Source of the DNA: Branchiostoma floridae
Taxonomy: Eukaryota > Chordata > Leptocardii > Amphioxiformes > Branchiostomatidae
Reading direction: 5' to 3'
Length of the DNA stretch: 64,000 bases
Assembly: GCF_000003815.2 (NCBI RefSeq)
Contig: NC_049990.1
Coordinates: 2,132,227-2,196,226, forward strand
The translations under genes and the position numbers were made by a program. Shown here piece after piece: positions 6,107 through 64,000 of this stretch. The notes below the pieces were generated by a model. It was not told where the DNA came from. It searched no databases and worked only from the letters and a program-made list of their open reading frames with translations. The stretch's first letter is position 1; each line of letters begins with the position of its first letter.

Positions 6107-6143
6107 CATGGTAACGCTTGTCCGCCTTTATCCGCGGGGTAAC
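6107..6143. repeat. Terminal repeat of a MITE family with CCGCGGGGTAAC ends
   Basis: GTAACGCTTGTCCGCC then TTTATCCGCGGGGTAAC. The same end sequence occurs at 30861-30890 (same strand) and, reversed, at 31049-31095, so in arm 2 the two copies face each other and frame about 235 bp. In arm 1 only one end is left, at the place where arm 2 has its 2.4-kb extra DNA. Confidence 0.55.
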
Positions 6144-6329
6144 ATACCAGTGTTACTGGGCTTTATGCCCCCTCATTGCGTGGAATAAGTAAGGATCATC
6201 TACTCTTCAGACAATATATAAAGTATAGTACAATGCTAAACTTTCTGCCAACAAAAAAATTAACACAGATAAAATTTTCAACGACCGCTGTCACCTTCTT
6301 CAGGATCAATACTGATGACCAATCACTGC

Positions 6330-6425
6330 AGAACGTAAACTCGCGAGAGTTGCTGACGACACGTATCCGTCCGCAAGATCACGTCTTAATAATATCACGT
6401 GTCCGTAACTCTCGCGAGTTGTTAC
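6330..6425. repeat. Inverted repeat around CTCTCGCGAGTT
   Basis: AACTCGCGAGAGTTG near 6342 faces AACTCTCGCGAGTTG near 6410, with ACACGTATCCG and CACGTGTCCG also mirrored. The structure is kept in arm 2 (about 28340-28435), so it predates the duplication. It may be a small inverted-repeat element; no target-site duplication was identified. Confidence 0.6.
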
Positions 6426-6716
6426 CAGCACAGATTTGATTTCATGACAATATATAAAATATTCTCTTTTAACTCTAACATTTGCTTGAGTACATCGCTT
6501 TCTCGGTTTGTGAGTCATCAATACTATACAATAGAAAACGTCTTTTCAAATAGTAATAGAAACACTGCGAATATCTTTAAAGCATGCCACTTAGAACCAC
6601 AAGGCTTAAGACGCAATAACATCTAAGGTAATTAAAAGGAACAAAACATTTTGCGCCAATGAGCCTTATAATTATTTTGCTGGAGGCGTAACAACTACGC
6701 ACTATTTTGTGCTACA

Positions 6717-6840
6717 CACTGCACGAAAAGTGTAATTTACCAAAGGGGTAAGCCTGACAATGTTTCCTTTGAGCCAGATTGTACCAGACTTATTTACCTG
6801 GCATTTACCGCTATTGCTAAATCACACTTTTCGTGCAGTG
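6717..6840. mobile_element. 124-bp CACTG-ended MITE (CACTA/EnSpm-like)
   Basis: Starts CACTGCACGAAAAGTG and ends with its reverse complement CACTTTTCGTGCAGTG; flanked by ACA at 6714-6716 and 6841-6843. Arm 2 has the empty site (CCTACACTGTCTCC, minus strand near 25590). CAC-type ends plus a 3-bp duplication are the hallmarks of the CACTA/EnSpm superfamily; the assignment is by these features only. Confidence 0.8.
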
Positions 6841-6909
6841 ACACTGTCTCCATAGTCTGTCTTCTCAATTATAAGATGTTTTCTGTTATTACCAATAAGG
6901 CCATGAGGA

Positions 6910-7205
6910 TTATATGGATGCCATTCGCGCGCGCACCAAATTTCGGCCGTTTCCAAAATTAGAAAAATAAATCAATCATACTCTAAATCGTACAAAGCAG
7001 CTTACAAATCATAAAATATATGACGTAGATTGCAAACATGAATATCAGAAAATGTATACTTCAGTCATAGAACATTACAAGGTCAAAGAAGATGTGAAAC
7101 AACAAAATTAAGAATCTATTGTTTGGTGTACTATTTTCTGTGTTCCTGTCATTTGTTCAACCTTCCTGACGACTTTAGTAGTGACCATAATTAAGGCAGC
7201 TTTTT
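6910..7205. repeat. Segment inverted relative to the palindrome
   Basis: This block (CCATTCGCGCGCG, TCGTACAAAGCAGCTT, AACATTACAAGGTCAAAGAAG, AAGAATCTATTGT in order) matches 24775-25440 in the same orientation, whereas blocks on either side match arm 2 in reverse orientation. It is bordered in each arm by inverted copies of a CATGGCC / ATATAATC / GGATGACATTC sequence, which can explain a flip by recombination. Confidence 0.7.
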
Positions 7206-7223
7206 CGTCAAACCTTTTTGTAT

Positions 7224-7598
7224 CATCCTCCTACGCATGGTTCCCAACGGCTAGCTGACTCAGCCTATGAGGCCCTGCTATCTCATGGCCTACCCGCAAT
7301 TATTTTCAGTTCCTCGTCGCCCTGCTTATAAACATTAATGAGCTTACCCTTATATGGGCAGTCAGCAGTTGGGGATCGGGCGTAGGGGGATGGTGCTATG
7401 TAAGACGTAACATGATTGGCTGACAGCTTCCCAGCGGCCTTTGCGAGACAGCTTTCGACAACAAAAAGCCCAAGAAAAGCCTATTCTCTGATTGGTTGAC
7501 AGCTGGTTTGTGGCGACAATCATAATAACCGCTGGTAGGCATCTAGATAGCAGGGTCCCATAGGCTAATGCCGTTGGGGACCGGGCGTTAGGAGGATG
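7224..7598. mobile_element. hAT-like MITE, 375 bp
   Basis: Ends CATCCTCCTACGC and GCGTTAGGAGGATG are inverted repeats, with GGTCCCCAACGGC-type sequence inside both ends. The 8-bp direct repeat TTTTGTAT flanks it at 7216-7223 and 7599-7606. Arm 2 lacks it. A second copy is cut by the N run at 57689-57962. An 8-bp duplication fits the hAT superfamily. Confidence 0.85.
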
Positions 7599-7799
7599 TT
7601 TTGTATTCGCAAACTGGCATCAGTTTTTGCATTCCCAGAGAATGTCATCCATATAATCAAATCAACATGGCCTAAGTAACCAAATGTAGAAAGTGGTATC
7701 ACTTCGGAGCCTTACAAACGAATGAAAGGTTATTTTTGCAGTGGTGGTCCTGACGAATTTGATTTCCTAATGAAGGCAACTTTCTTTGTCAAACCTTTT

Positions 7800-7805
7800 T
7801 TTATT
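7800..7805 (-). promoter_or_regulatory. Poly(A) signal of the minus-strand lectin gene
   Basis: AATAAA on the minus strand, 92 nt after the stop codon. The plus-strand copy has AATAAA at 24614-24619, also 92 nt after its stop. Confidence 0.6.
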
Positions 7806-7896
7806 CGCATGCTCACATCAGTTTTTGTATTCCCAGAGAATGTCATCCATATAAGCAAATCAACATGCCCTAGGTAACAAAATGCAAAACGTGGTA

Positions 7897-13558
<5,662 letters not shown>

Positions 13559-14309
13559 CCCTCCTGAAATCAAAGTATGATTCATTACGTTTAGAAATAA
13601 TACCAAATATTAGTTACAAGTTATGAATTTAGATGTCAATCCATGGCATTAATTTATGGCATTAATACTTACATTACATCAAAACTAAAAACCAATTGTA
13701 TCATCCTAGGGACTAGGTAGGTAGGTAGGTATCATCCTTGTAAGAGCTAATGCTTATATAATAGTAAAATCTCTAGCTGTCTGTAGTCTCCTTACAATGT
13801 GCGAACGATGACAACTCCAACTACAATTTAGCAATACATTACTTGGCTAAAATATAGTCCTCAGCAATGCATCAACATTCTTCCATACACCTGGATCCGT
13901 TTCCAAACGCAAGGTCAGTTTCTGTAGCGTTTTGAATATTTTCAAAACTCTTCTCCGATGTTCTAGATACTCGAAACAGAAAATAGGGGGTGAGAACTAC
14001 TCCATCGGGACGACGTTCGCGGCACCTGTGTATTTGTCTACTGTCACTTTTCAATGTCAAAAGTTTAAACTATTTTCAAGCAAGCTCCATTCGATTAATA
14101 TATCAAGCAACATTAAGATTTATTTGTTTATGTTTGTTTTGGGCAGATGACACCCATGGCGCACCTTTGTTTTTCTTACTAATGGTATAGCATTGAGCTT
14201 GCCATAGCACGTTTCATTTGTTTCTAATTTATTTTTTACAGATGAAGACGATATGGCGCTGCACTCAAGTTAGTGACTTATATCAGCAGTGCCACATACA
14301 GTACAAACA

Positions 14310-14512
14310 GAAGGTAAAGGTAACCTTTTCATTTACCTCTCCGACCGAAGTCAGGTACCCATTTTTACACCTGGGTGAAGTGGGGAAGGTCGTGTAAAGT
14401 GCCTTTCCCAAGGGCACATCGTCGGACGCACGGCGGGCATCGGCAAGGCGGGTATCGAACTCAGTATCTTTAGATTCCAAGCCGAATGCTCTACCACATA
14501 CACCACACGAAG
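14310..14512 (-). mobile_element. tRNA-derived SINE
   Basis: On the minus strand a tRNA-like head (14508-14441) has an A-box-like GTGGTAGAGCATTCGGCT and a B-box-like GAGTTCGATACCC. The body contains CCCTTGGGAAAGGCACTTTA and CAGGTGTAAAAATGGGTACC, a layout common to tRNA-derived SINEs of invertebrate deuterostomes. It lies between the promoter and first coding exon of the minus lectin gene. Confidence 0.75.
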
Positions 14513-15000
14513 AACCTTTCCTTGCCAGCGGGCAACAAACGGCGCGGGTTTCCTTTATGTTTGGTTTTGCTGCCTCATTTCCGGCAATATTTCTCCGAAA
14601 TTGTGCTGCTGTGAATATGCAGTAGAGAGTGCACACCAATTTTTATTTCTATGCGCCGAAATATGGGATATATGGATTTTTTTCTTTCGAAAAAACAAAC
14701 AAACATTGTCTATATCATTATCCAAACGACTGAAATGTGTTGGGACATTGCATTAGAATCGACTTGTGACATTTTACATACATAGATCACGACAAAGCTG
14801 AAAACGTTTGAAAATGTAGTTTTCGGGATCTCAAATTAAGGGTTGAAGACAGTCAAGACAAATTTAAAAAGACGCTTCAGTAACAAATTGTTTTTAGACG
14901 GTAACGGTTGGTAGAGAACAATAGAATATACCACAGACTAGCGAAAATTATGTGTTCAGGGCACGGCACATGTTTGTACATGTACAACCTTCTGTTCGAC

Positions 15001-15110
15001 CATATTGAGTGCCAAGTGAGGTAACGAACTGAAGGTTTTATACACCCGTTCTAGAAGGACGGCGCTCTCACCGCGCGCTCTCTGCGACAGATCGATCAAT
15101 GAATTCTATA
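15001..15110 (-). promoter_or_regulatory. TATA-box promoter of minus-strand lectin gene
   Basis: TATAAAA on the minus strand at 15042-15036, within a block conserved as an inverted copy at about 16965-17100. The first coding exon begins 1.5 kb downstream, so a 5' UTR exon and intron are expected. The start site is inferred, not seen. Confidence 0.6.
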
Positions 15111-15114
15111 GAAA

Positions 15115-15214
15115 NNNNNNNNNNNNNNNNNNNNNNNNNNNNNNNNNNNNNNNNNNNNNNNNNNNNNNNNNNNNNNNNNNNNNNNNNNNNNNNNNNNNNN
15201 NNNNNNNNNNNNNN
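15115..15214. other. Assembly gap (100 N)
   Basis: Exactly 100 N, the usual size of a gap of unknown length. It lies close to the palindrome centre. Confidence 0.99.
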
Positions 15215-16446: not shown

Positions 16447-16964
16447 GTTTGCACACATATTATGCCTGTATACACAACACGAAGTTCCAATATTTCGGGG
16501 GGGGGGGGGTGTTGAGGTATTTTGCACATAAATGTGGCATACCTCAGCTAAGTTCATCGACTGGGGAAGTGAATTTGCAGCAACAGCACATTAGATTGCT
16601 TGGTTCTTTTTATTGCATATAATTTCAAATGGTCAATCTCTGGGGAAAATCATATTTATTACAAAATAGCACAAATACATATTTACCAGTCGCTCAGTTG
16701 CTATGTTATGGAAACCCCGAACAGTAGAAAGTCGTTATTGGTTCAGGAGAGGTTCTATCTTATTAGTAATAATAGTGAGGCCCCCTTTCCACTAGATGGC
16801 GATCGCGCTGCGCTCCCACTGCGACCTAAATAGGATATGTGTAACCTTCGCTTTCACACTGGGTATATCAAACAAAACGTAAAAGTGTGACTGAGAAGAC
16901 AGCAAAACACACAAAGTGTAAAAAGATTCGTTTCTTTTCTATAGAATTCGTTGATCGATTTGTC

Positions 16965-17100
16965 AAATCTTGAGTCGCAGAGAGAGCGCGGCGAGAGCGC
17001 CATTCTAGTGGAAAGGGGGTATAAAACCTTCAGTTCGTTACCTCACTTGGCACTCAATATGGTCAAACAGAAGGTTGTACAAATATTGTCGCACCCTATA
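16965..17100 (+). promoter_or_regulatory. TATA-box promoter of plus-strand lectin gene
   Basis: TATAAAA at 17020-17026 after a GGGGG run, followed by CCTTCAGTTCGTTACCTCA that is conserved in the inverted arm. The coding start is at 17840 behind a TTATAG acceptor, so the first exon should be non-coding. Confidence 0.6.
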
Positions 17101-17589
17101 TGATCCGTGCCCTGAACATATGATTTTCACTAGTCTGTTGTATATCCTACTGTTATTAACAAACTGTTGTCGCCTAAAAATAAGTTGTTACTGAAACTTT
17201 TATTTTTTTTATTTGTCTTGACTGTCTTCAACCCTTAATTTGATATCCCGACAACCACATTTTCAAACGTTTTCATCTTTGTCGTTATCTATGTATAGAT
17301 ACGTCACTGTTCGATTCTAATGTCATGTTCCAACACAATTAAGTTGTTTGCGCAATGATATAGACTGCATTTTTCGAAATTTCAAAAACGGCAAATTCGA
17401 AAGAAAAGTCCAAATATTTCATCTTTCTTGTGCATACTAACAAACAGTTGGTGTACACTCTATTGCCTATTAACAGCGGCACGATTTCGGAGAAACATCG
17501 CAGGAAATGAGGCAGCAAAAGCAAACATAAAGGAAACCCGCGCCGTCTGTTGCGCGCTAGGAATGAAACGTGCTTTGCGTGGTGCCTAG

Positions 17590-17692
17590 CGTCGTGTGTG
17601 GCGTACCTGGTAGAGCGTTCGGCTCGTGTTTGGCGTAACTAGTAGAGCGTTCGGCTCGTGTTTGGCGTAACTAGTAGAGCGTTCGGCTCCTA
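17590..17692 (+). repeat. Triplicated tRNA-like SINE head
   Basis: Three tandem copies (about 32-34 bp) of a GTGTTTGGCGTAACTAG then TAGAGCGTTCGGCTC unit. It matches the A-box region of the SINE present in full at the equivalent site of arm 1; B-box and body are missing here. Confidence 0.7.
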
Positions 17693-17839
17693 TTTCAACT
17701 TGATAAGGATCAAATGACTGATCGAAAGCTTGTTGGTAAGCACTTTATTTAGTGTACGGATATAAGGTCTTAAAATTGTAACATAATGCCAAGGGTTTAT
17801 GTTAAAACGCAATGAATCATATTCTAATTTATAGGCGGG

Positions 17840-20800
17840 ATGGCGACAAGCGATGTTCCCAATGAGTACATCTCAACTCCTAATCATGGGGAAAAGTCCC
17901 TTGAAGACGATAAAGGTGCGACCGTTTCTCCCGAAAAAGACATTGGAAAGGATGATCAAGTACAACGTTCTTCTGCTAACCGTCAAACGCATACGCACCA
18001 GGACATCGACATAAACACAACTGCCGGTCTCCGTAGTGATGGTCCAGGGGCCTACACCGACCCACAGCCTGCGGAAGCTGGACCGCGCTATCTTCACGTG
18101 GGAGACCACGTTCTGGTCTATTCTGTTCGCGAACTAGAAGACATTTACGGGTACAACGAGAACGAGAGCACCGAGTTCGACGATGGGTTGCCTTCAAAAG
18201 ACTACGAGTCACCAGAGGAAGCCCATCTATACAAAGGGCATATCAAAGTGAGCAAGAGTCAAAACGAAGGGACTTCTTCTGACAACTACGAGACACCAGA
18301 AAATGTTCACAGATACGAAGAGTCAGCGAACGTGATAACGGGTAACGACAAAGGGTCTTTCACGTGTAATTACGAGACACCAGAGGATGTGCAGGGATAC
18401 AAAGGACCTGAGACAGTAAGCATGGGGCACGACGGACATTCTCCTTCCCAGGACTATAACAAACCGGAAAATGCTTGCGGAAACGCAAAGCCAGCCCATG
18501 TGAGCAAGGCACAAGAGGAAGGAACTTCCCGCATTAACTACGAGACTCCAGAGGATGTCCAGGCATGCAGAGGGTCGGGGAAAGTGAGCAAGGCACAAGA
18601 GGAAGAGTCTTCTTCCAATGACCATGAGACACCAGAAAATGCTCACAGAAACGCAAATCCAGCACATGTGAGCAAGGCACCAGACGAAGGGACGTCCCGC
18701 ATTAACTACGAGACGCCAGAGGATGTCCAGACACACAGAGGGCAGGGGAAAGTGAGTACGGGGCATGACGAAGGGTCTTCTTCCTCCAATGACTACAAGA
18801 CGCCAGAGGACGTCCACGGACACGATGAGTCTGACCGAGGGAGCACTGTGAACAACGATGGGTCTCCCTCTCAAGACCACGGGATTGTTAGCTTTGCCTA
18901 CAGGGCTAAATGTGAGTGAAGACTGCATTCAGCAATTGAAACATTAACCCCTTATTGCTTTCGCCAAGAAGGCAATGATTTCAGGTACGAGTGTGTGTGT
19001 GAAGAGTATCACTCGTGACGTGTTGAGTAGATGTTAAGGACCTTTGGTATGTTGTTGGTTGCTGGAAAAATGAAGAAAAAACACCATATTCCGTCCCCCA
19101 TGTTAGCTTCCCATAGTACTGAAGCCATACGTATGGTTTTTATATTTTGTGTACTATATATTCTACCGTCGTGCTTCTGGAGTCAAAAGATGGAACGTAT
19201 TAATGGATCTTCATATATGTTTCTTTTTTGCGTGAAAGAGGCTAGGGTGACGGTTAACGTAATGACAGTAAATAATGCAAATCATTACATCATGTACATA
19301 ATTGATGAGGATAACTGATGATTTGTCTACATACAATGCAATATGTGACAGATGTCACTTAGAAAAAGAGGACCATTATTTGATGCAAGTTACGTAAACA
19401 AGGACCTAATTTTCCTTATCAATGAAAAATTCAGGTATAAAGCAATTCAATGTACTTTCATATCCATTGAGCATGAAAAGGTGAACATCATTGTGGAAAC
19501 TTTTAACAAAATACTAATTTAGCATATAATGTAGTAGATTCTATTTCAAGTCACCGGAAGGGTTGTCATTGTCGTGATCTATAAATGTTTTGCAATAGTA
19601 TATATGATATATTCTATATTTTGGAGTTTAGTTATATTTTCCCGGTTATGTACAACTTTTGAAAATATTCATGACGTGAAAATATTCATGACGTGGAATA
19701 TGATAATTCATATAGTTGTCCAATATTCGTAACAGCATTCTGGACTTATTTACCATTTTCTAACATTTTGGGGATAAGAGGAAGAAAATGTACACATCCT
19801 TGCAAGGTATAGCGAAGTACCCCTGGGTGTAATGCATCAATGGGTCACCACTAAGCACCCATCGGTGAAATCTAAAAATATACAGAGGTTATATAACAAT
19901 ATATAGGACTAACTTTTATAGGAGCAATAACACAAATCTAAATCTATAATTTGTAAAAAAATATTTGGTAAAATCTCTTAAGTGTAAGGATCATAAATAC
20001 GTTTTGAGAATTATTCTAAACAAGATTTGTATGCAGTCACATCCAATGTGTTTCGAAAATATTTAACGAAATTCGAACAAAGTTCTAAACTACCATTGCT
20101 TAGATATTAGTTTATTCAAAATAATCCAAACCCATTACAATTGTCATTTTAAAAACCTTTTTTTTAAGTGAATAGGGGTGAACTCTATATTTTATTTATT
20201 GAACCTCAGCCCGCCTTGTGGAAATTAAGAGCAAGGCGAAGTCTAGCAGAGTGTACTGGCTTGTACTGGGTTGCGGACTCCTGGTGGCAGCGTCAGTTGT
20301 AGTAACGGCAGCACTGACACCGCGACGTGTACCGGGCTCTATGGTACATTGTTATTTTTTGCTTGCCTTGTAGTAGCTAGTGGCACATAGGTCACCACCT
20401 TTTCTTATCATTTCTGTAATAGGGTGTATTTTTGCTGGAGGGAGTTGCTGGTCACTTAACATGCTTAATGTGGTCATTCATATCCTATTTTGCCTAAAAT
20501 ACGATAATGGGTTATTTTCACACCCGGAAATGCGCGTTTCGCTTACCTTGGCAAAGTAATTTGTGAACAACGATCAACAAAACCGTGTTTAAAAATCTAT
20601 CTATTACATACTAGGGTCCACGTTTGTTATTTTAGACCGCGTTTGGTATGATATAGCAGTGAATAATGTGGTGTTTGAAAGTTAATCCGGTGATAATATG
20701 GCTGCATTGTCATTTAGTTTATATGTTAGCTTTCTTTATGCCCGTTTTATCTAGGAGGCAGATGGTTTAAAGAAAGGGAACGGCCTTGAGATCACTACGA

Positions 20801-23800
20801 ACGAAACGAAGCCCGGCTCTCCCCTTGTGACACCCATGGGCATGGGAAATGGCTCGGCCGTCGTCAGTTCGACTCCAGATTGTTCCGCAAACACCCGACG
20901 GGACGTCCGGATCTCACTGACAACCGTGGCGTCACTGGGAACTATTGGTAGATGGCCGATGTTTTAATTATTTCTTATCATTACTGCAGTAGGGTATTTT
21001 TTGCAGGGAGTATTTGCTGGCTATTTAAACTGCTTAGGTGGACGTCCCTAAATGTGGTCATTCATATCCTATTTTGCCTAAAATATGAAAATGAGCAGGG
21101 GTTGTTTTCAAACCCGAAAATGCACCACTGTCAACTTCTGGTAAATGTGGATATTGGTAGATGGCCGATGCATTAATCATTACATGAATCATGAAATGTC
21201 GTTTTTAATTATGTACAATCCCTATCCATATTCGTCCACGGAGGCAGACGATATTCCATGTGTAATGTTTTTGAACTTGACCCTTGGACATGTACATGTG
21301 GTCCTCGTTTTGAGAAAAGGGCCCTGCGTAATTTCTACATTTACCATCACTGTGAAAAGAGTAACTTACCATGAGTGATTGCTGAGAGATAATTTCGCTT
21401 TAATGCCACTTACGGTACTAGAAGTTGTTTGCACTTCGAAATATAATCAGTTCCCCTTTCTTTCTATTTAAAATCTTTCTGTACAATTACAAAAAATGCA
21501 AATACTTTTAAACAGATCAGTAATCATGAATTCAGCTACTTGGACGGACATTTCCAGTTGCTTGTCAATACTCACTGCGCCAGATATTCGAAAGATCTTA
21601 CCGGAACAATTCTTTTTCAAAAGTCTTTTTATTTCTATTTTTTGTACTTAGAATGCTGCTATTGATAAGTGTCCTGTCCTTGTACATGTTTAATTCCATT
21701 TGTATTGTCTGTTTTTGTCAGAGCTAGCCCTTTGTAATAGCCACATGCTAGTTGGGCAGCCCTGGCTGTACGTGCTTAATAGCCAAACAAATAAATACTA
21801 GTAGATAAATAAATACATGATTAGCATTGATGCACCGTACTTAGTTCGAAATCCCGAAAATATTTTTTAACTTTTACAGACATAAAGGAGTGTTCAAAAC
21901 AACCGTGCCAGCATGGACACTGTGTGAACACAGCTGGCGGATACAAATGTACCTGCTCGACTGGATGGACTGGACAGAACTGTCAGCGAGGTGGATTCTT
22001 TCTTTTCTTCATGTCCACATGTTTATGATACATATGGCGTTCATGTCTTTGTCAGCTATAAGTCCGTAATTTTTTTATTTGTTTGTTTGAATGGTTGATT
22101 TTAACACCAGGAATAGTTTTTTTATGTTTAGAATTGTGGGACTAAAGATCTTGTCCATTTTCACACAGACATAAATGAGTGTACACAACAACCATGCCAA
22201 CATGGACGCTGTGTGAACAAAGCTGGCGGATACAAATGTACATGCTCGACTGGATGGTCGGGACAGAACTGTCAGAATGGTAATAATAAGCTTTTCTGTT
22301 CATAAAAACATGTTGAATGTATTTGTTTGGTTGTTTTTCAGCTATACGCCCATAGTTTCTCGTTTGTTAGTTTGACAGTTTGATTCAAATGTGGCAAAAA
22401 TAGTGTTTTAGTGCTCAGTAGGGGTCTCGGTACAACACCACAGAATGCCACATCCCCCGTCTAGGGCCCATATTAGATACAAGATACTTAAGTTACAAAT
22501 CGTAGTGTTACCATTGAAATTAAACCAATTTAATACTTTAAAAAAATGCTATTTCATGTGCAGGTTGGCTATGTGATGGCAACAGTTAGTGAATGTCTTT
22601 TGCAAACAGTTCCGAAACAATGTGAGATACCACCATAAGGGAAAAGCGTACCCATACATACTGAGTTTAACTTACAATTATGCTGTTTTGTTTTGTTTTT
22701 ACAGCCCCTCCGTGTAAGGGCGGATGGATCGAATACAATAACCACTGCTACAAGTTCTTCAAAGACAAACGTTGTTGGTCCAAAGCGAACGAAAAATGCA
22801 AAGAGTTCGGTGCAAACCTAGCTTCTGTCACCAGCGCTGGCGAGAACAACTTCATTGCAGGTCTCATTGCCGATGGTAAGTGAGGAATTTCTCGCACCAA
22901 GATCATCTATATTATATCATAGAGTTTTATACCATCTTAAAAGTTAATCTGAGTTGACAAATTCAATTATCATGCATCCAAGAGGCTGAATCAAAATTTT
23001 AACCCATAGTTTTGACTTATTCTCACAGCCTTCATTAGCTTCTTGACCTAATAGCTGTGAACACATGTTTTTGCACTCGAGAATTCCAGGTGTCTACTTT
23101 TGTTTACAGTAGAAGCCAATTAATTGCACAGCGGATAACCGCACACTTCTGTTAATTGCACCGAATCCTAAATCCCGTGGTGGTGCGGTCCAGCAGCATA
23201 ACTGCGCTTTGTTGCATCATTCGGATAATTGCACGAAATGCGCTTGCAAATGGGCTGTGCAATTAAACGGCTTCTCCTGTATTTTGAGAATTTAATTCTT
23301 CACGATTTACAGAAGTCAACTACTGTAAATGCAGAAATGCTCGCGGTGGATTAATGCTCGCGGTTTTCGTGGCGGCCGCTTCACCGCGAATGTAAAGCCA
23401 CCGCGAACATTTTTCCATAACAGCAAGAGAAGACGGTGCATGGTGCTACCGCGAAATTAAAATCACCGCGAAAAGTCCATTTTCCCGCTACCGCGAAATT
23501 AAATCCCCGCGAAATTAAATGCATTTACAGTATCTAGAAAGTACAACCAGCTTCTATGATTAAGCATCCTTAAATCCTGTTGATTCCAGCTCCTAGAGGG
23601 CATGTTCGACATGTCGTCTGGTTTGGACTGAACCGTCTGGATGGTAAGAAGTGGAAGTGGACCGACGGGTCACCGTTATCCTACAAGAACTGGGCTCCTG
23701 ATGAACCTGGTCGCAACGCTATGGGGCTTTGGGGGGTAACTGTGAAATGTGCTGACATGTACTCAAAGGTACTAGTATTTTGTTTTTTAAATAATCTTTT

Positions 23801-24522
23801 AAGACGTTGATAAAGAGCTTTATTTGGTTTTTAGTCTTCACAATAGTTAACGGTTCTTCACACGTAGAGGGACGAGCGGCGTTTTGATAAATGCCAGACT
23901 GCGGAGCGTTCTTTTGGCTGCCACGTTTACACACGCCAACCTGTCAAATGACTACATGCAGCAGTTTCTGGCACTAGTTTTGTGGGGAAATGTGTAGTCG
24001 TTTTTATGTATACGTTTTATATACGTATATTGTTATGTATACGTTTCATTGGTTATAATAAAAATGACACTTAAGCCCCAGTCAAGCTAAGTTCCTAACT
24101 TCGCACAGTAGATTAAGAAAATAGTAAATGGAAGAGATTTGTATTATTTACTCACCAAAAGTCATTATCACACAGGTGCACGCACACACGCATACGCTGT
24201 ATAATTTACAACCTTGAAATATAACATTCAGCTAACTACATATTGCAAATTATTCTCTCGCGTTTGTCTGATTAACACATTTTTCAGCTAGCAAATCCAT
24301 CTAAATGTTTCTTCATTCAGGTTGTAACAAAAAAACTGTGGGCATTGTTGAAAATGCTAAAAGCCGTTAAGATATTTGATTTAACAATCTTGTCTTTTAT
24401 ATGTGTAATATTTTCAACAGGACGACAGGAATCTGTGGATCCGTGCGAAAGGGAAGAAAGGACAATGGAACGACCACCACTGCAAAAATAAACTTTCATT
24501 CGTTTGTAAGGCTCCGAAGTGA
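17840..24522 (+). CDS. Type II membrane C-type lectin receptor with YxxP-repeat tail (copy 2)
   Basis: Eight exons: 17840-18911, 20210-20343, 20755-20947, 21880-21990, 22169-22279, 22705-22875, 23590-23768, 24421-24522. They sum to 2073 bp, 690 residues, in frame throughout. ATG 17840 follows a TTATAG acceptor. Tail repeats of exactly 28 residues place the key residue at 122, 150, 178, 206, 234, 262 (His), 290 and 319: YESP, YETP, YETP, YNKP, YETP, HETP, YETP, YKTP; YTDP is at 72. The membrane helix is about 372-393 after a basic stretch (KSKAKSSR), fitting an N-in protein. The stalk 403-466 carries NET and NGS sequons. EGF 467-503 and 504-540 have six Cys, a DINEC-type start and C-x-N-x4-Y-x-C, the calcium-binding EGF pattern. 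The lectin domain 541-690 has GWIEYNNHCY, WFGLNR, NWAPDEPG and QWNDHHC. EPG stands where sugar-binding family members have EPN or QPD, so ligand type is open. It is transcribed away from the sister gene. Confidence 0.9.
18912..20209 (+). other. Lectin copy 2 intron 1
   Basis: Non-coding. Large parts match 11880-12490 in reverse, including the TTTCACCGGTGGG-like block near 19860 and ATTTAGATTTGTGTTATTG near 19935. A short ATATTCATGACGTG sequence is repeated in tandem at about 19664-19695. No other gene seen. Confidence 0.7.
23107..23279. mobile_element. pogo/Tigger-like MITE (arm 2 partner)
   Basis: CAGTAGAAGCCAATTAATTG at the left and GGCTTCTCCTG at the right, flanked by TA; ancestral partner of 9163-9330 in intron 6 of the lectin gene. 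Confidence 0.8.
23323..23530. mobile_element. CTGTAAATGCA MITE (arm 2 partner)
   Basis: Inverted partner of 8928-9119, TA-flanked, within lectin intron 6 just upstream of exon 7. Confidence 0.85.
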
Positions 24523-24837
24523 TACCACATTCTGCATTTGATTACTTAGGCCATGTTGATTTGATTACATGGATGACAATCTCTGGGAATACAAAAACTG
24601 ATGCGAGCATGCGAATAAAAAAAGGTTTGACAAAGAAAGTTGCCTTCATTAGGAAATCAAAGTCGCCAGGACCACCACTGCAAAAATAAACTTTCATTCG
24701 TTTGTAAGGCTCCAAAATGATACCACATTTTGCATTTGATTACTTAGGACATGTTGATTTGATCATATAAATGACATTCGCGCGCGGATCAATTCTCAGC
24801 TGTTTCGAAAATTATTAAAAAAAATGTTTCAACAATA

Positions 24838-25025
24838 CTGTAAATGCATTTAAGTTCGCGGGGATTTAATTTCGCGGTAACGGGAAAATGACTTTTCGCG
24901 GTAACACCATAGACTGCAATCTAATACCATAATAGAAAAATGTTCGCGCTGGTTTTAAGTTCGCGGTAAACTTGTCACCGCGAAAGCAGCGAACATTAAT
25001 CCACCGCGAACATTTCTGCATTTAG
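24838..25025. mobile_element. CTGTAAATGCA MITE, arm 2 only
   Basis: Starts CTGTAAATGCATTTAAG after TA; the right end CATTTAG is damaged. The matching arm 1 sequence (CAATCATACTCTAAATCG near 6975) is empty. Confidence 0.8.
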
Positions 25026-25195
25026 TACTCTGAATCGTACAAAGCAGCTTTCAAATAAGAAAATATATATAGATATATTTGCCGTGGATTGTAAAAACAA
25101 AAATCAGAAAACGTATACTACTGTCACAAAACATAACAAGGTCAAAGAAGTTGTGACAGAACAAAAATGAAGAATCTATTGTCTGGTATACTATA

Positions 25196-25403
25196 CTGTA
25201 AATGTATTTAAGTTCGCGGGGATTTAATTTCGCGGTAGCGGGAAAAATGACTTTTCGCGGTGGATTTAAGTTCGCGGTAACACCATAGACTGCAATCTAA
25301 TATCATAATAGAAAAATGTTCGCGGTGGTTTTAAATTCGCGGTGAAGTGGTCACCGCGAAAACCGCGAACATTAATCCACCGCGAACATTTCTGCATTTA
25401 CAG
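25196..25403. mobile_element. CTGTAAATGCA MITE, arm 2 only
   Basis: CTGTAAATGTATTTAAG to TGCATTTACAG, TA on both sides. The arm 1 site (GTACTATTTTCTGTG near 7130) is empty. Both ends are well kept, consistent with a younger insertion. Confidence 0.85.
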
Positions 25404-25929
25404 TATTCTGTGTGTTCAGTCAGCTGTTCAACCCTCCTGACCACTTTGATCTTACAATGAAGGCAACTTTTTTTATTCGCACCCTCGCACCAGTTTTTTT
25501 ATTCCTATTGAATGTCATCCATATAATCATATCAACATGGCCTTATTGGTAATAACAAACAACAACTTATGATTAAAGAAGACAATGTTATGGAGACAGT
25601 GTAGGACAAAATAGTGCGTAGTCGTTACGCCTTCGGCAAAAGTATTATAAGACATTGGCGCAAAATGTTTTATTCCTTTAAATTACCTTAGATCAAGGAG
25701 CTTCTATCAATCAAAGAATCTTTATTAGCGTAGCAGATTTCATCATCTGAATAATTCGCTAACTCACAGTGTTTAAAATCGAATGTGTTAAATACATAAC
25801 GGATGAGAGAAATTGACATCTGAAACATGCTTAAAACTACGTACATATATACATAAAATACAAACACATGTAGTAATTCATTTTTAAAAGAATTAGAAAT
25901 TGCAGTTTGTGAACATTGCAAACTGTCTA

Positions 25930-28104
25930 TAAGATTAGATTAAGACGAGTTGTTGTGGAGCACTGTGGTTTGGTGTAAGAATGATCGTTTGAGTCTTTCG
26001 GTCCTGCATTTAGGTAGTGTTCGGTGACTGGAGTTACGCAATGTTCGTCCTGTCGCAACCTCTCTGTCGTCAGGGACCATAAAGTGCAAAGGATGGTCAC
26101 TGGCCAGCATCTGTGTGTATAACGATCTTGCAGCGTTTTATCGTCTGGACTGCAGGGTGGGCAAGGGAGCTAACGACGCTGGATTGCTGCTGTGTCCGTA
26201 GATGATACGCAGAGCTCGTTTCTGTACGCGTTCGAGAGTGTTCCTTTGAGACTCAGTACATCCAACGAAGACAACGTGGGCATATTCCAACACTGGCCTC
26301 ACTAGAGTAGTGTAAACTGTTAACAGGTCTTCAGGAGGCATGCCGCCCTTGGCCAGTAAGCGGAGAAAGTGTAGTCGTTTAGAGCCCTTCGTTGTCACAT
26401 GTGTGATATGGCTGTCCCATCTGAGGTTGGAATGTACCTTAAAACCCAGGTAAGGCTAGGGTCACAATTGGCCCGGTGCCCGTCAGGGATGTAGCCCCGG
26501 CCGGGCTCTGAAGTCGGGCGGACACCGGCTGTTTACCGGCTGTCGTGGTCACAATCAAACGTTGCCTTCGCGCTGCCCCATGGGGGTCCCGGAGTGTTCC
26601 GGCGGGCACCCCGTCATTTTTCTTTAAAAAATTTCCACCTTCCTAGGTTCGTCTCCGGCAGACACCCGTCAGATGTTCTGACGGTGTCCTGTAGTCACCC
26701 CTGCGGGGTCCGACAGGGTAACGTTTGTCTCTCACAGCCCGGTGGGGCAGTTGTAGGGTCCCTGTCGCATGCCCTGCGAACAACGGCAGGGAACCAGGCA
26801 GGCTCCTGGTGGGCACTATTTAAGGGGTATAAAAACAAGCATTGCCTGCATTAACTTAAGGTAGTACATCATTGAACTTGGAGTACTGGTGCGGTACGTC
26901 GGGGTCCGTTCACTGCGGCACGTTTTTTTTCGCCAACTTTTCCTCGCAGTCGCACTGACGTGCGGCACTGTTACGTTTCTAAACTAAACTAAATAAACAT
27001 GTTATTGGAATTTTTAATGTCGGCGGATGACTTGCCAAACTGTTGAGGCCTATATTTTTATATTTGTAAAACGAAAAAAAATGGCTTATGGGTCCGAATG
27101 ACTGCAAGTTTGGCGTTCCGTCGGCCAATTGCAGAGGAAACGTCCTTCTTCAGCTAAACATCTTTCTTCAGCTTGTTTCTATAGTCTGGGGTTGTAATAT
27201 CGTAAAAAACATAGAAGCTTTCTATGAAGGAGGCTATCTGTTCGTCCTGCTTCTCAGTGATGCAGCCTATTATGTGGTCTGTTGCGTGGTGTGTTGTCCT
27301 ATCCCCCTCTGTTCAGCCCTTGTCTGCAGAAGTTTCTGTTGCTGAATTCTTCCGCCTGCCTAGTGGACTAAGCGCTGTTTCCCCTGGTCTTCTCCTTTCC
27401 CTTGGTATAGCGCTATGCACTTAACTCCACTGTAATACGAGAACTGTGTGATACGTGTAAGTTCACGGCTTTTGTCCTTTCACGTGATCTGTGACGTCAC
27501 ATATTTGACCCGGTGTTACGAATTACACACTTTTATTCCGTAAACCTGGTCTTTGACGTAACGAATTTATTCCGACAGACTGCCGGCAACCGGAGGGGTC
27601 CCTCTCGGTGTTGTCACGATTAGGTCGCGGGGTGGTTGTACGAGCGGGTCCCTGGTTCATTTTAACTCAGACTTAAATTGAACCAGGGTCCCGGCCGGGC
27701 CTCAAAATACCCCGGCAGCCGCGAGGTGTCCCACAGGGCAACGCAGGGGTCACGCCCGAAAGTGCCAAAAAACAGCCCGTGAATTGCCCGGCAGGGCCCC
27801 TTTTTCGAATTGTGACCTAAGCCTTAGTCCCACAGTCAACCACTGGCACTACTTTCCCCTCAAGAGTAAGGGGAGGGGGCTCGGGAGGGTGTCTGGAGAA
27901 GCACAGTCTGAGTTCGTAGGATTTGTCCCCATTCATGATCATGTTTTTTTCCGCTGCCCAGGAGTCCAGTTGTGTGGCTTCTTGTTGCATGGTGTCATCA
28001 GTCTCGACAGCATCACAGGGGATGGTGCGAGACAGACCTATATCATCCGCATAGCCGGTGTTATCGGTGGTTTCATACTTGGTGGTTCTTGTAGACATGT
28101 ACAC
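25930..28104 (-). pseudogene. Non-LTR retrotransposon reverse-transcriptase relic, split by an insertion
   Basis: The minus strand encodes a palm-domain piece with YADDIGLS and a following CGTK segment (28104-27827), then, after the 26453-27824 insertion, LGFKVHSNLRWDSHITH and LLTVYTTLVRPVLEYAHVVF (26450-26140). A stop follows LPTLQSRR; beyond it a degraded tail contains REVATGRTLRNSS. The order matches the C-terminal half of CR1/L2-type reverse transcriptases. The 5' part is missing and the two halves are in different frames. Confidence 0.8.
26453..27824. mobile_element. 1.37-kb TA-flanked TIR element nested in the RT relic
   Basis: Left AGGCTAGGGTCACAATT, right AATTGTGACCTAAGCCT, flanked by TA at 26451-26452 and 27825-27826. 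GC-rich subterminal CCCGGC blocks lie at both ends and there is no recognisable transposase. It separates two halves of one reverse-transcriptase coding region, which proves insertion. Confidence 0.85.
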
Positions 28105-28639
28105 AAGACTTAAGAGGCCTCTTGATAAAAGCTCCTTGCTTAGATGCTATTGCGACTTAGCCTAGTGATTCCAAGTGGCATGCTTCAATGATATTAGAAC
28201 TGTGTCTATTACTAATTGAAAACGTTTTCTATTGTATAATATTAATGACTCACAAACCGAGAAAGAGATGTAGTTGACACGTCGAACAAACGTTCGAGTT
28301 AAAAGAGAATATTTTATATATTGTCATGAAATCTAATCTGTGCTGGTAACAACTTGCGAGAGTTACGGACACGTGATATTATTAACACGTGATCTTGCGG
28401 ATACGTGTCGTCAGCAACTCTCGCGAGTTTACGTTCTGCAGTGATTGGTCATCAGTGTTGATCCTGAAGAATGCGACAGTGGTCGTTGAAAATTTTATCT
28501 GTGTTAATTTTTGTGTTGGAAGAAAGTTTAGCTTTGTACTATACTTTATATGTTGTCTGAACAAATAGATTCTTACTTCATCCACGCAATGAGGGTGCAT
28601 AACGCCCAGTAACACTGGTATGGTAACCCACTCCTGACT

Positions 28640-55907: not shown

Positions 55908-56231
55908 TTAGTCCTCCCCGGCAAATCTCCCTGTGTCTTCTATATACTTTGAGAATGCCTTGTACATCTTTTTGTTTGTTTCTTCTCCCAGATCTTCTCT
56001 CATCCCTGCTAGCGTCACTATGTCCAGCCTTCTCTCTTTCTCCCGTGTACTGAGTTCTTGGTATATGTTGTCCACCTCGTTATACATTCTGTGCCTGCTG
56101 CTCTCATACCTTGGGCAGTAGTACAGGAAGTGCTCTGTGCTTTCTCTCTCCCCACATGCTTCACAGTTGGGTGACTCTGTGTCGTCTATCCAGTTTCTGT
56201 AGGCGTTGAGTGAGGTGTGCCAACTCCTCAC
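55908..56231 (-). pseudogene. Non-LTR retrotransposon C-terminal fragment
   Basis: A 107-codon frame with SLNAYRNWI, CEACGERESTEHFLYYCPRY then R, the CxxC...H...C arrangement found after the reverse transcriptase or RNase H region of many non-LTR elements. It lies in the intron of zinc-finger gene A. Truncated at its 5' side. Confidence 0.6.
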
Positions 56232-56549
56232 CCCAAATAGGGATTATCGTTTGGAAACAATGACAAAAAGTGTCCCCAAGAAATTCCATTTTGACAAAGA
56301 TTGGCCCATGTTGCCAACAAGAGGATCATTATGCACACTTCATGTTTGCAAAATGTCTCTGCAATTTCCCAATGTTCTTTTAGTTTTGCCTTTCAAAAGG
56401 ACTATTTGCCTGATGTGACAGGCAGTCCCATATAAATCATTACTACTATGTAGTAAGTGGATTGTCGATTATGTACATACAGTATCGCCACACCGGGGTT
56501 CTGGTATTTTTGGCTTGTACCAAATGGGTTATTCTGGCACACAACTCTA

Positions 56550-58078: not shown

Positions 58079-59113
58079 AAGATCTCGGAGGATGTCGACA
58101 AGCAGTGTCAAGAGTTTGGGTGACGTCAGCGGAAAGGCGAAAAACGATTCTTCTGTGCGATCTGTCAGAGAGGAGAAACGCTACAGGTGTGAGGAGTGCA
58201 GCAAGCAGTTCAGTCGGCTGGGTAATCTGAAAACACACGTGCGGACTCACACAGGGGAGAAACCTTACAAGTGTGAGGAGTGCAGCAGACAGTTCAGTCG
58301 GCTGAATGATCTAAAGAGACACATGCGGACTCACACAGGGGAGAAACCCTACAATTGTGAGGAGTGCAGCAAGCAGTTTGGTAGACTTGGTCATCTGAAG
58401 AGTCATATGCGGACTCACACAAGGGAGAAGCCTTACAAGTGTGAGGAGTGCAGCAGGCAGTTCAGTGAGCTGGGTACTCTCAGGAGTCACATGCGGACTC
58501 ACACAGGTGAGGAACCCTACACATGTGAGGAGTGTAGCAGGCAGTTCAGTCATCTGGGAAATCTTAAGATACACATGCGGACTCACACCGGTAAGAAACC
58601 CTACAGGTGTGAGGAGTGTAGCAAACAGTTCAGTCAGCTGGGTCATCTGAAGAGTCACATGCGGACTCATACAGGGGAGAAACCCTACAGTTGTGAGGAG
58701 TGCAGCAAGCAGTTCAGTCAGCTGGGTGATCTGAAGACACATATACGGACTCACACAGGGGAGAAACCCTACAGATGTGAGGAGTGCAGCAAGCAGTTCA
58801 GTCAGTTGGGTGATCTGAAGAACATATACGGATTCACACAGGGGAGAAACCCTACAAGTGTGAGGAATGTAGCAAGCAGTTCAATCAGCTGCGTCATCTT
58901 AAGGAACACGTGCGGACTCACACAGGTGAGAAACCCTACAGATGTGAGGCGTGCAGCAGGCAGTTCAGTCAGCTGGACTCTCTGAAGACTCACATACGGA
59001 CTCACACAGGGGAAAAACCCTACACGTGTGAGGTGTGCAGTATGCGGTTCAATCTGTTGTATAGCCTGAAGAAACACATGGTAACTCACACAACAGAATT
59101 TGTACAAGTGTGA
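58079..59113 (+). CDS. C2H2 zinc-finger gene A, 11 fingers, one-base frameshift
   Basis: The exon starts at 58079 after a CTTTACAG acceptor; ATG 58092 is the first in frame. A short head ([18 protein letters not shown]) is followed by fingers of the form [21 protein letters not shown] joined by TGEKPY linkers. Fingers 1-7 are intact. Near 58820 one base is missing against the sister fingers (AAGAACATATA for AAGACACATATA), shifting finger 8. Uncorrected, translation stops at 58983-58985; in the +1 frame fingers 8-11 continue to TGA 59111-59113. Residues at helix positions -1,2,3,6 differ between fingers (RGNT, RNDR, RGHS, EGTS, HGNI, QGHS, QGDT, then QRHE, QDST, LYSK for 9-11), so a long specific DNA site is expected. 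No KRAB-like or other effector domain seen. A leader exon is likely at 52880-53049. Confidence 0.85.
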
Positions 59114-63461: not shown

Positions 63462-64000
63462 AACTTGTACAAGATCCAGAATGGATGCAACAACACGTAG
63501 TGCCCAGAGTTCGGGGTTCGTCGGGAGAAAGGCGAAAAGGGATTCTTCTGTGCGATCTGTCAGAGAAGAGAAACACTACAGGTGTGAGGAGTGCAGCAAG
63601 CAGTTCAGTCGGATGGATAGTCTAAAGACACACATGCGAACTCACACAGGTGAGACACCCTACAAGTGTGAGGAGTGCAGCAGGCAGTTCAGTGAGCTTG
63701 GAAGTCTGAGGGCTCACATTCGCACTCACACAGGTGAGAAACCCTATAAGTGTGAGGAGTGCAGCAAGCAGTTTAGTCAGCTGGGTAACCTGAAGGCTCA
63801 CATGCGGACTCACACAGGGGAGAAGCCCTACAGGTGTGAGGAGTGCAGCAGACAGTTCAGTCAGCTGGGTCAGCTGAACACCCACACGCGGACTCACACA
63901 GGTGAGAAACCCTACAGGTGTGAGGAGTGCAGCAGACAGTTCAGTCAGCTGGGTCAGCTGAACACCCACATGCGGAGTCACACAGGTGAAAAACCCTACC
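63462..64000 (+). CDS. C2H2 zinc-finger gene B (partial, runs off window)
   Basis: The exon starts at 63462 after a TCTCTACAG acceptor; ATG 63481. The head MDATTRSAQSSGFVGRKAKR then [15 protein letters not shown] parallels gene A (shared [11 protein letters not shown]). Five fingers are visible with helix codes RDST, EGSA, QGNA, QGQT, QGQT; the last two fingers are almost identical, suggesting recent repeat expansion or conversion. The frame is open to the window edge. Its leader exon is probably 60640-60812 and the intron carries the composite 61365-62845 insertion. Confidence 0.88.

Follow-up and report, generated by a model that had tools for sequence, protein, structure and literature searches.

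A putative type II C-type lectin receptor family of Branchiostoma floridae with tandem YxxP motifs in its predicted cytoplasmic tails

A stretch of 64,000 nucleotides of the Branchiostoma floridae genome (assembly GCF_000003815.2, contig NC_049990.1, positions 2,132,227 to 2,196,226 of the forward strand), hereafter the window, holds two genes placed head to head, gene A on the forward strand and gene B on the reverse strand. Each comprises eight exons that encode, in the same order, an N-terminal tail, a transmembrane (TM) segment, a stalk, two EGF modules and a C-type lectin domain (CTLD), the products being 690 residues long in gene A and 684 in gene B. The tail is occupied by a tandem array of tyrosine-x-x-proline (YxxP) motifs. 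Together with their paralogues elsewhere in the genome, the two genes probably belong to a multigene family of amphioxus whose members are type II C-type lectin receptors, with a long cytoplasmic N-terminus that would serve as a built-in, multi-site phosphotyrosine docking scaffold. A preliminary description of the window had proposed for gene A a type II lectin with EGF modules and a tandem YxxP tail, and had taken gene B for a sister of the same design; the gene models, Pfam matches and order of tail and TM exon at all 21 paralogous loci are consistent with such a receptor, and gene B does have nine YxxP and eight matching exons.

Gene models, topology and the lectin domain

Exon boundaries in both genes were placed by eye and then checked by script for splice sites and phase; every junction is GT-AG and the phases fit. 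Exon 1 of gene A (17840..18911, +) is open from an ATG start to a phase-1 donor (AAAT/gtgagt) and encodes an acidic tail of 357 residues. It is followed on the same strand by the TM exon (20210..20343), the stalk exon (20755..20947), two EGF-like exons (21880..21990 and 22169..22279, both matched by Pfam) and three exons that make up the CTLD, of which the first spans 22705..22875, the second (23590..23768) carries EPG in the long loop, and the third (24421..24522) carries WND and the stop codon. The tail exon of gene B (12493..13558, -) encodes 355 residues, and 292 of the 355 aligned residues are identical to those of gene A; its remaining exons, all on the reverse strand, are those for the TM segment (11397..11530), the stalk (10793..10985), EGF-like modules 1 (10330..10440) and 2 (10032..10133, three residues shorter), and the three parts of the CTLD (9568..9738, 8690..8865, and 7897..7998 with the stop).

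Both genes lie in an inverted head-to-head duplication (6136-15114 against 16936-28629) whose matching blocks, coding and non-coding, are about 69-93% identical; a run of N stands between the genes, near 15116-15214. That A and B are misassembled alleles is disfavoured, because they are placed head to head and their first exons show a synonymous divergence of 0.18. The two stalk exons differ at two sites only, and since their dS (0.019) is far below that of the tail, TM, EGF and lectin exons (0.17-0.20), recent gene conversion is suggested. Both genes are followed, as read by eye, by a further, incomplete copy of their final lectin exon (about 24669-24725 for A and 7690-7750 for B).

The predicted lectin fold is clear: Pfam Lectin_C matches gene A with an E-value of 8.6e-17 (62.3 bits against a cut-off of 22.6), and the nearest solved structures by sequence, among the best 60 of 205 matches, are CTLDs of lymphocyte antigen 75 and of mannose-receptor-type proteins. 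Calcium-dependent sugar binding in C-type lectins goes with EPN (mannose-type) or QPD, plus WND. Genes A and B combine WND with EPG and, because EPG stands at the EPN position, sugar binding by their products is uncertain; EPN is present in 10 of the 18 paralogues that have the exon and QPD in one (L032), according to alignments read by eye.

Both EGF and lectin domains belong to the disulphide-rich modules found outside the cell, and exon 1 contains no hydrophobic stretch (its Kyte-Doolittle maximum is 0.23, that of the whole protein being 2.49, at residue 375, in the TM exon), so that the tail should be cytoplasmic and the orientation type II. As judged by hydropathy alone, the sequence pattern fits a single TM segment between tail and lectin domain with no N-terminal signal. 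The charges flanking the TM segment of gene A (four basic and one acidic among the 15 preceding residues, three basic and two acidic among the 15 that follow) are of weak help in assigning orientation.

The YxxP array and its paralogues

Eight unit cores in the gene A tail begin at residues 122, 150, 178, 206, 234, 262, 290 and 319, with a spacing of 28 in six of the seven steps and of 29 in the last. By conversion of residue positions to window coordinates, the array core from Tyr 122 to Pro 322 covers 18203..18805 (+) of the window. These units had been described as eight exact 28-residue repeats; their number and period stand, but they are not identical, and in exon 1 Tandem Repeats Finder returns periods of 84 and 168 bp with 65-80% matches. 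The units of the array, then, share a period and differ in sequence. Seven of the eight carry YxxP in the forms previously listed (in order YESP, YETP, YETP, YNKP, YETP, YETP, YKTP), the unit at residue 262 reading HETP. Two further motifs lie beyond the unit cores, YTDP at residue 72, which the preliminary description had rightly recorded, and YKGP at residue 187, which it had missed, giving nine YxxP at residues 72, 122, 150, 178, 187, 206, 234, 290 and 319. The gene B tail also has nine, its first unit being CESP. Shuffled tails contain on average 1.06 (gene A) and 1.29 (gene B) such motifs, and 0 of 20,000 shuffles reached nine in either tail. The tyrosine array is real and exceeds chance, with stronger support than it had at first been given.

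Large hydrophobic residues form 12% of the tail, and this low content suggests that it is disordered. A Pfam match of gene A exon 1 alone to NUFIP1 (E 2.1e-5, just above the cut-off) fell below the cut-off on the whole protein and was rejected as a match to repeats or composition; besides NUFIP1, the Pfam search of the tails gave only two sub-threshold matches, and the gene B tail had no match at all.

A search of the genome (513,431,437 bases in 431 contigs; counts of large families are lower bounds) with the gene A tail yielded 30 matches in 23 loci: A, B, L011-L030 and L036. On sequence similarity, the family to which the tail belongs therefore comprises 23 loci or more, and the number of YxxP per tail ranges from 1 to 19 across it. 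These paralogues bear directly on whether the first exon is joined to those downstream. The view that exon 1 is never joined to the lectin exons, the two belonging to different genes or to alternative transcripts, we regard as highly improbable, since all 21 paralogue loci agree in exon order, strand and acceptor phase. Each of the 20 loci L011-L030, and L036 as well, has a TM exon downstream on the same strand, its acceptor being AG in phase 1 each time, and in 17 of 20 paralogue rows the end of exon 1 is a GT donor in phase 1; short of transcripts, this agreement is the best support for the joining of tail and membrane exon. The three exceptions at the donor are L016, which has a broken frame and two open reading frames (ORFs), L023, which has an odd end, and L027, whose row displayed a neighbouring gene and whose own ORF has the usual AKG near its end.

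The ectodomain exons were recovered less uniformly. EGF exons are present in 15 of the 20 loci L011-L030 and in L036, and were not found in the stretches downstream of the tail in L013, L016, L022, L025 and L029. CTLD exons are present in 18 of 21 paralogues, 15 of them in the first stretches and L011, L019 and L020 in extensions, although some match only two of the three exons; L022 and L029 gave neither EGF nor CTLD exons, extension included, and L036 gave no CTLD within its stretch. Signs of decay are visible in L016, where exon 1 is split over two frames, and in L011, which has a stop within an EGF exon.

Ahead of the array, residues 78-105 of gene A hold a conserved block, RYLHVGDHVVV(Y/C)SGxESE. 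It is present in some form in 22 tails, themselves chosen by a loose form of it, and is not in the L036 ORF; when 17 stretches, each about 68 residues long, were aligned, the columns without variation were one Asp, one Glu, one Tyr and one Pro.

Constraint on the motif across the family

The motif was followed through a set of 23 ORFs, taken from A, B and L011-L030 with L016 counted as two and L036 left out. Their whole tails contain 136 YxxP; 2,000 rounds of shuffling gave a mean of 25.2 and a maximum of 44. Where prolines after the DHV block are considered (for the second L016 piece, those of the whole ORF), Tyr stands at -3 in 133 of 194, and at no other Pro-centred offset from -8 to +8 does its count rise above 50. 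The sites have a common context, with Glu at +4 in 108 of the 133, Asp or Glu at +5 in 102 and Val at +6 in 87; at +1 the commonest residue is Lys (75), though gene A mostly has Glu there.

A profile of the 28-residue unit was built from 41 seed units, using picking patterns that allow some non-Tyr and non-Pro forms, and aligned 107 whole or partial units, 78 of which had all four key positions. Two YxxP sites exist per unit: both are kept in 28 of the 78, the first only in 26, the second only in 19 and none in 5, so that at least one survives in 73. The 5 units lacking both compare with 9.5 expected if the two sites were lost independently, which is suggestive of a requirement that every unit keep at least one. 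Codons were compared over 5,203 pairs of units from different genes, with A and B taken as one gene; synonymous (pS) and non-synonymous (pN) differences were 0.53 and 0.316 overall. The first-site Tyr has a pN/pS of 0.05, the lowest among the 28 unit positions; the values at Glu+4, the second Tyr and the first-site Pro are 0.11, 0.34 and 0.51. Since the first-site Tyr is the most constrained position of the unit, the tail looks functional.

Several observations weigh against so favourable a view of the motif. The YxxP counts of eight short ORFs (L016, L021, L022, L023, L025, L028, L029, L030) were reached by at least 110 of 2,000 shuffles. The first-site Pro has mostly been replaced by Ala or Val in L011 and L015, which accounts for its pN/pS of 0.51; outside these two loci it is kept in 53 of 55 units. 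The pairs behind pN/pS are non-independent, and most profile seeds were picked by their Tyr, so that the alignment favours Tyr. Between A and B alone, the motif Tyr is shared at 8 of 10 positions, about the overall identity of the two tails and so with no extra protection, while the motif Pro is shared at 10 of 10; the argument for constraint on Tyr is therefore carried by the family-wide comparison of units. Finally, change is quicker in the tail than in the lectin domain, with a dN/dS of about 0.53 as opposed to 0.27 between A and B.

The same observations might be read as the drift of a minisatellite: an acidic, low-complexity, PEST-like repeat grown by slippage, with no phosphotyrosine role and with tyrosines inherited from one ancestral unit. 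The 84/168-bp tandem structure, the wide variation in array length, the tail dN/dS of about 0.5 and the lack of any extra conservation of Tyr when A is set against B would all be accommodated, but mere inheritance fits poorly with a Tyr so strongly conserved between genes when pS is 0.53, with the retention of one or other of two different sites in nearly every unit, or with the persistence of the first-site Pro outside L011 and L015. We therefore consider drift improbable.

Elsewhere in the window, short interspersed elements with a GCGGT-rich inverted sequence, resembling miniature inverted-repeat transposable elements, were noted by eye at 23320-23535, 24838-25020 and 25195-25405, and ORFs resembling reverse-transcriptase remnants of long interspersed nuclear elements, also read by eye, at 26138-26455 (-) and 55908-56243 (-). 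Tandem 84-bp repeats at 58172-59092 and 63568-63999 have a unit common to both arrays, and in translation the first reads as C2H2 zinc fingers.

Known counterparts, docking partners and meaning

Vertebrate type II C-type lectin receptors (Dectin-1, CLEC-2, the NKG2 group) have an N-terminal cytoplasmic tail, one TM segment and a C-terminal CTLD, and their tails are short, with one or two YxxL-type motifs. Gene A differs from them in its 357-residue tail with nine YxxP and in the EGF modules between TM segment and CTLD. None of the 17 tyrosines in this tail has Leu or Ile at +3 (Tyr 84 has Val) and, because of this, the predicted receptor is not of the immunoreceptor tyrosine-based activation motif (ITAM) or hemITAM type.

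An array of many YxxP is also present in p130Cas/BCAR1, which has 15 against nine per gene here (PMC2689226, PMC5043372). Since neither the N-terminal SH3 nor the C-terminal FAT-like domain of Cas has a Pfam match in gene A, whose C-terminus is a lectin domain, the receptor is not, on its predicted domains, a Cas protein. Its tail could correspond to the substrate domain of Cas, here anchored in the membrane and acting specifically through Crk, DOCK and Rac. The SH2 consensus of Crk is pYxxP (PMC2689226), and two crk genes, crka1 and crka2, are known as cDNAs from B. floridae (PMC5043372). The transmembrane receptors DCBLD1 and DCBLD2 resemble A and B in having many YxxP, eight each with one of DCBLD2's not intracellular; these are phosphorylated by Src-family kinases and Abl, which promote binding of the CRKL SH2 domain, and that binding requires the YxxP (PMC6029619). 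Yet Crk is not singled out by the sequence, the first-site Pro being less constrained than the Tyr or Glu+4, and the commonest +1 residue across the family being Lys; moreover, the phagocytic receptor CEACAM3 binds Nck, not CrkL (PMC3308951). A role for Crk is possible and not specific, one among several hypotheses on partners, and an exclusively Crk-directed scaffold seems to us less likely than not.

DCBLD1 and DCBLD2 differ from the amphioxus proteins in an ectodomain of CUB, LCCL and discoidin type, and the available portion of that report describes no 28-residue tandem array (PMC6029619); DCBLD2 is, besides, a type I membrane protein (PMC8213761). No Pfam match to CUB, LCCL or discoidin domains was obtained in gene A. 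The choanoflagellate proteins PTSG_05573 and PTSG_12436 likewise have several YxxP in a predicted cytosolic region, with EGF repeats in PTSG_12436 and 10 YxxP in PTSG_05573, of which two peptides covering five bound choanoflagellate Crk SH2; three of the five choanoflagellate YxxP proteins differ in having SH2-like domains, and the main text never mentions a lectin (PMC5043372). The preliminary description knew of no receptor so arranged, a claim that needs dividing. Given DCBLD1/2 in vertebrates and the predicted choanoflagellate receptors, a receptor with its own YxxP array is not new as a principle. For a lectin the claim is uncontradicted: a type II EGF-lectin receptor with a regular tandem YxxP unit and an expansion to at least 23 loci was not found in the open-licence literature, among the matches listed, and the novelty of this combination is weakly supported.

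The regularity of the array might speak for another partner. In docking of the RasGAP type, pairs of pYxxP 19 or 28 residues apart would be bound by the two SH2 domains of p120RasGAP together, and the receptor would act as a brake on Ras or Rho or as a regulator of actin. These SH2 domains prefer pYxxP, and Pro stands at +3 in each of the nine best-studied partner motifs; the two sites of a tandem lie 18 apart in p190RhoGAP and 19-28 in Dok, and p190RhoGAP-A and Dok1 bind at nanomolar affinity (PMC10470053). In the 23 ORFs, successive YxxP are spaced by 9 (35 cases), 19 (28) or 28 (28), together 91 of 113, and 18 of the 23 contain a pair 18-28 apart. The spacing, however, may be no more than a consequence of the repeat length, and we think such docking unlikely. 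A third proposal, that phosphorylation of DYESP and DYETP by a Syk/ZAP-70-type kinase recruits Vav and Nck and bypasses a separate SLP-76-type adaptor, draws on the motifs of SLP-76 (YESP, YESP and YEPP), which are phosphorylated by ZAP-70 and two of which bind Vav1 and Nck (PMC3795252). Gene A carries four YETP, but YESP only once; across the family YDKPED and YKVPEE are among the forms that occur more often, and the Nck SH2 consensus given in a review, pYDxV (PMC2661883), is not present in the tail. We accordingly rate a module of this kind as rather improbable, on a level with minisatellite drift.

Our preferred reading remains a multi-site phosphotyrosine scaffold that is not committed to one partner, and we infer the topology, expression, phosphorylation, partners and output of these receptors. 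The EGF/lectin ectodomain would bind a glycan or another ligand and the receptors would then cluster, letting kinases of the Src/Abl or Syk type add phosphate to many Y-x-x-P-E-(D/E) sites together; SH2 proteins that read pYxxP (Crk, RasGAP, Vav-type) would load along the array, with an avidity set by the number of sites and their 9/19/28 spacing, and the output would pass to actin, adhesion or uptake. A partial precedent in amphioxus is BbLcLRR, a membrane receptor that a Src-family kinase phosphorylates on its tyrosines in Jurkat cells, where amphioxus Lck (BbLck) restored its phosphorylation after depletion of Lck; it differs in being an inhibitory leucine-rich repeat receptor with ITIM-like (immunoreceptor tyrosine-based inhibitory motif) sites (PMC8211107). 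Another paper on an amphioxus receptor makes no mention of SLP-76, Crk, Nck, Vav, SH2 or C-type lectins (PMC10199209).

We further suggest, as a speculation that is possible and rather doubtful, that cephalochordates evolved more than 20 lectin receptors each with its own adaptor, in which YxxP copy number (1-19) and the 9/19/28 spacing tune coupling strength and the choice of SH2 partner, and which diversified by gene duplication and by minisatellite-like gain and loss of units. A review has asked why the docking motif of p130Cas is repeated so often (PMC2689226); if our proposal is true, a natural series of array lengths, from 1 to 19 YxxP on related receptors, would make that question of motif repetition testable. 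The family would also offer a one-chain alternative, receptor plus scaffold, to the vertebrate arrangement, in which the lectin receptors have short tails and the adaptors, SLP-76 or Cas, are separate proteins, and a whole family of receptors in a basal chordate would sense through lectin domains and signal through a scaffold on the same chain. It would thereby provide candidate phagocytic or immune receptors in amphioxus, to our knowledge an animal without lymphocyte-type antigen receptors.
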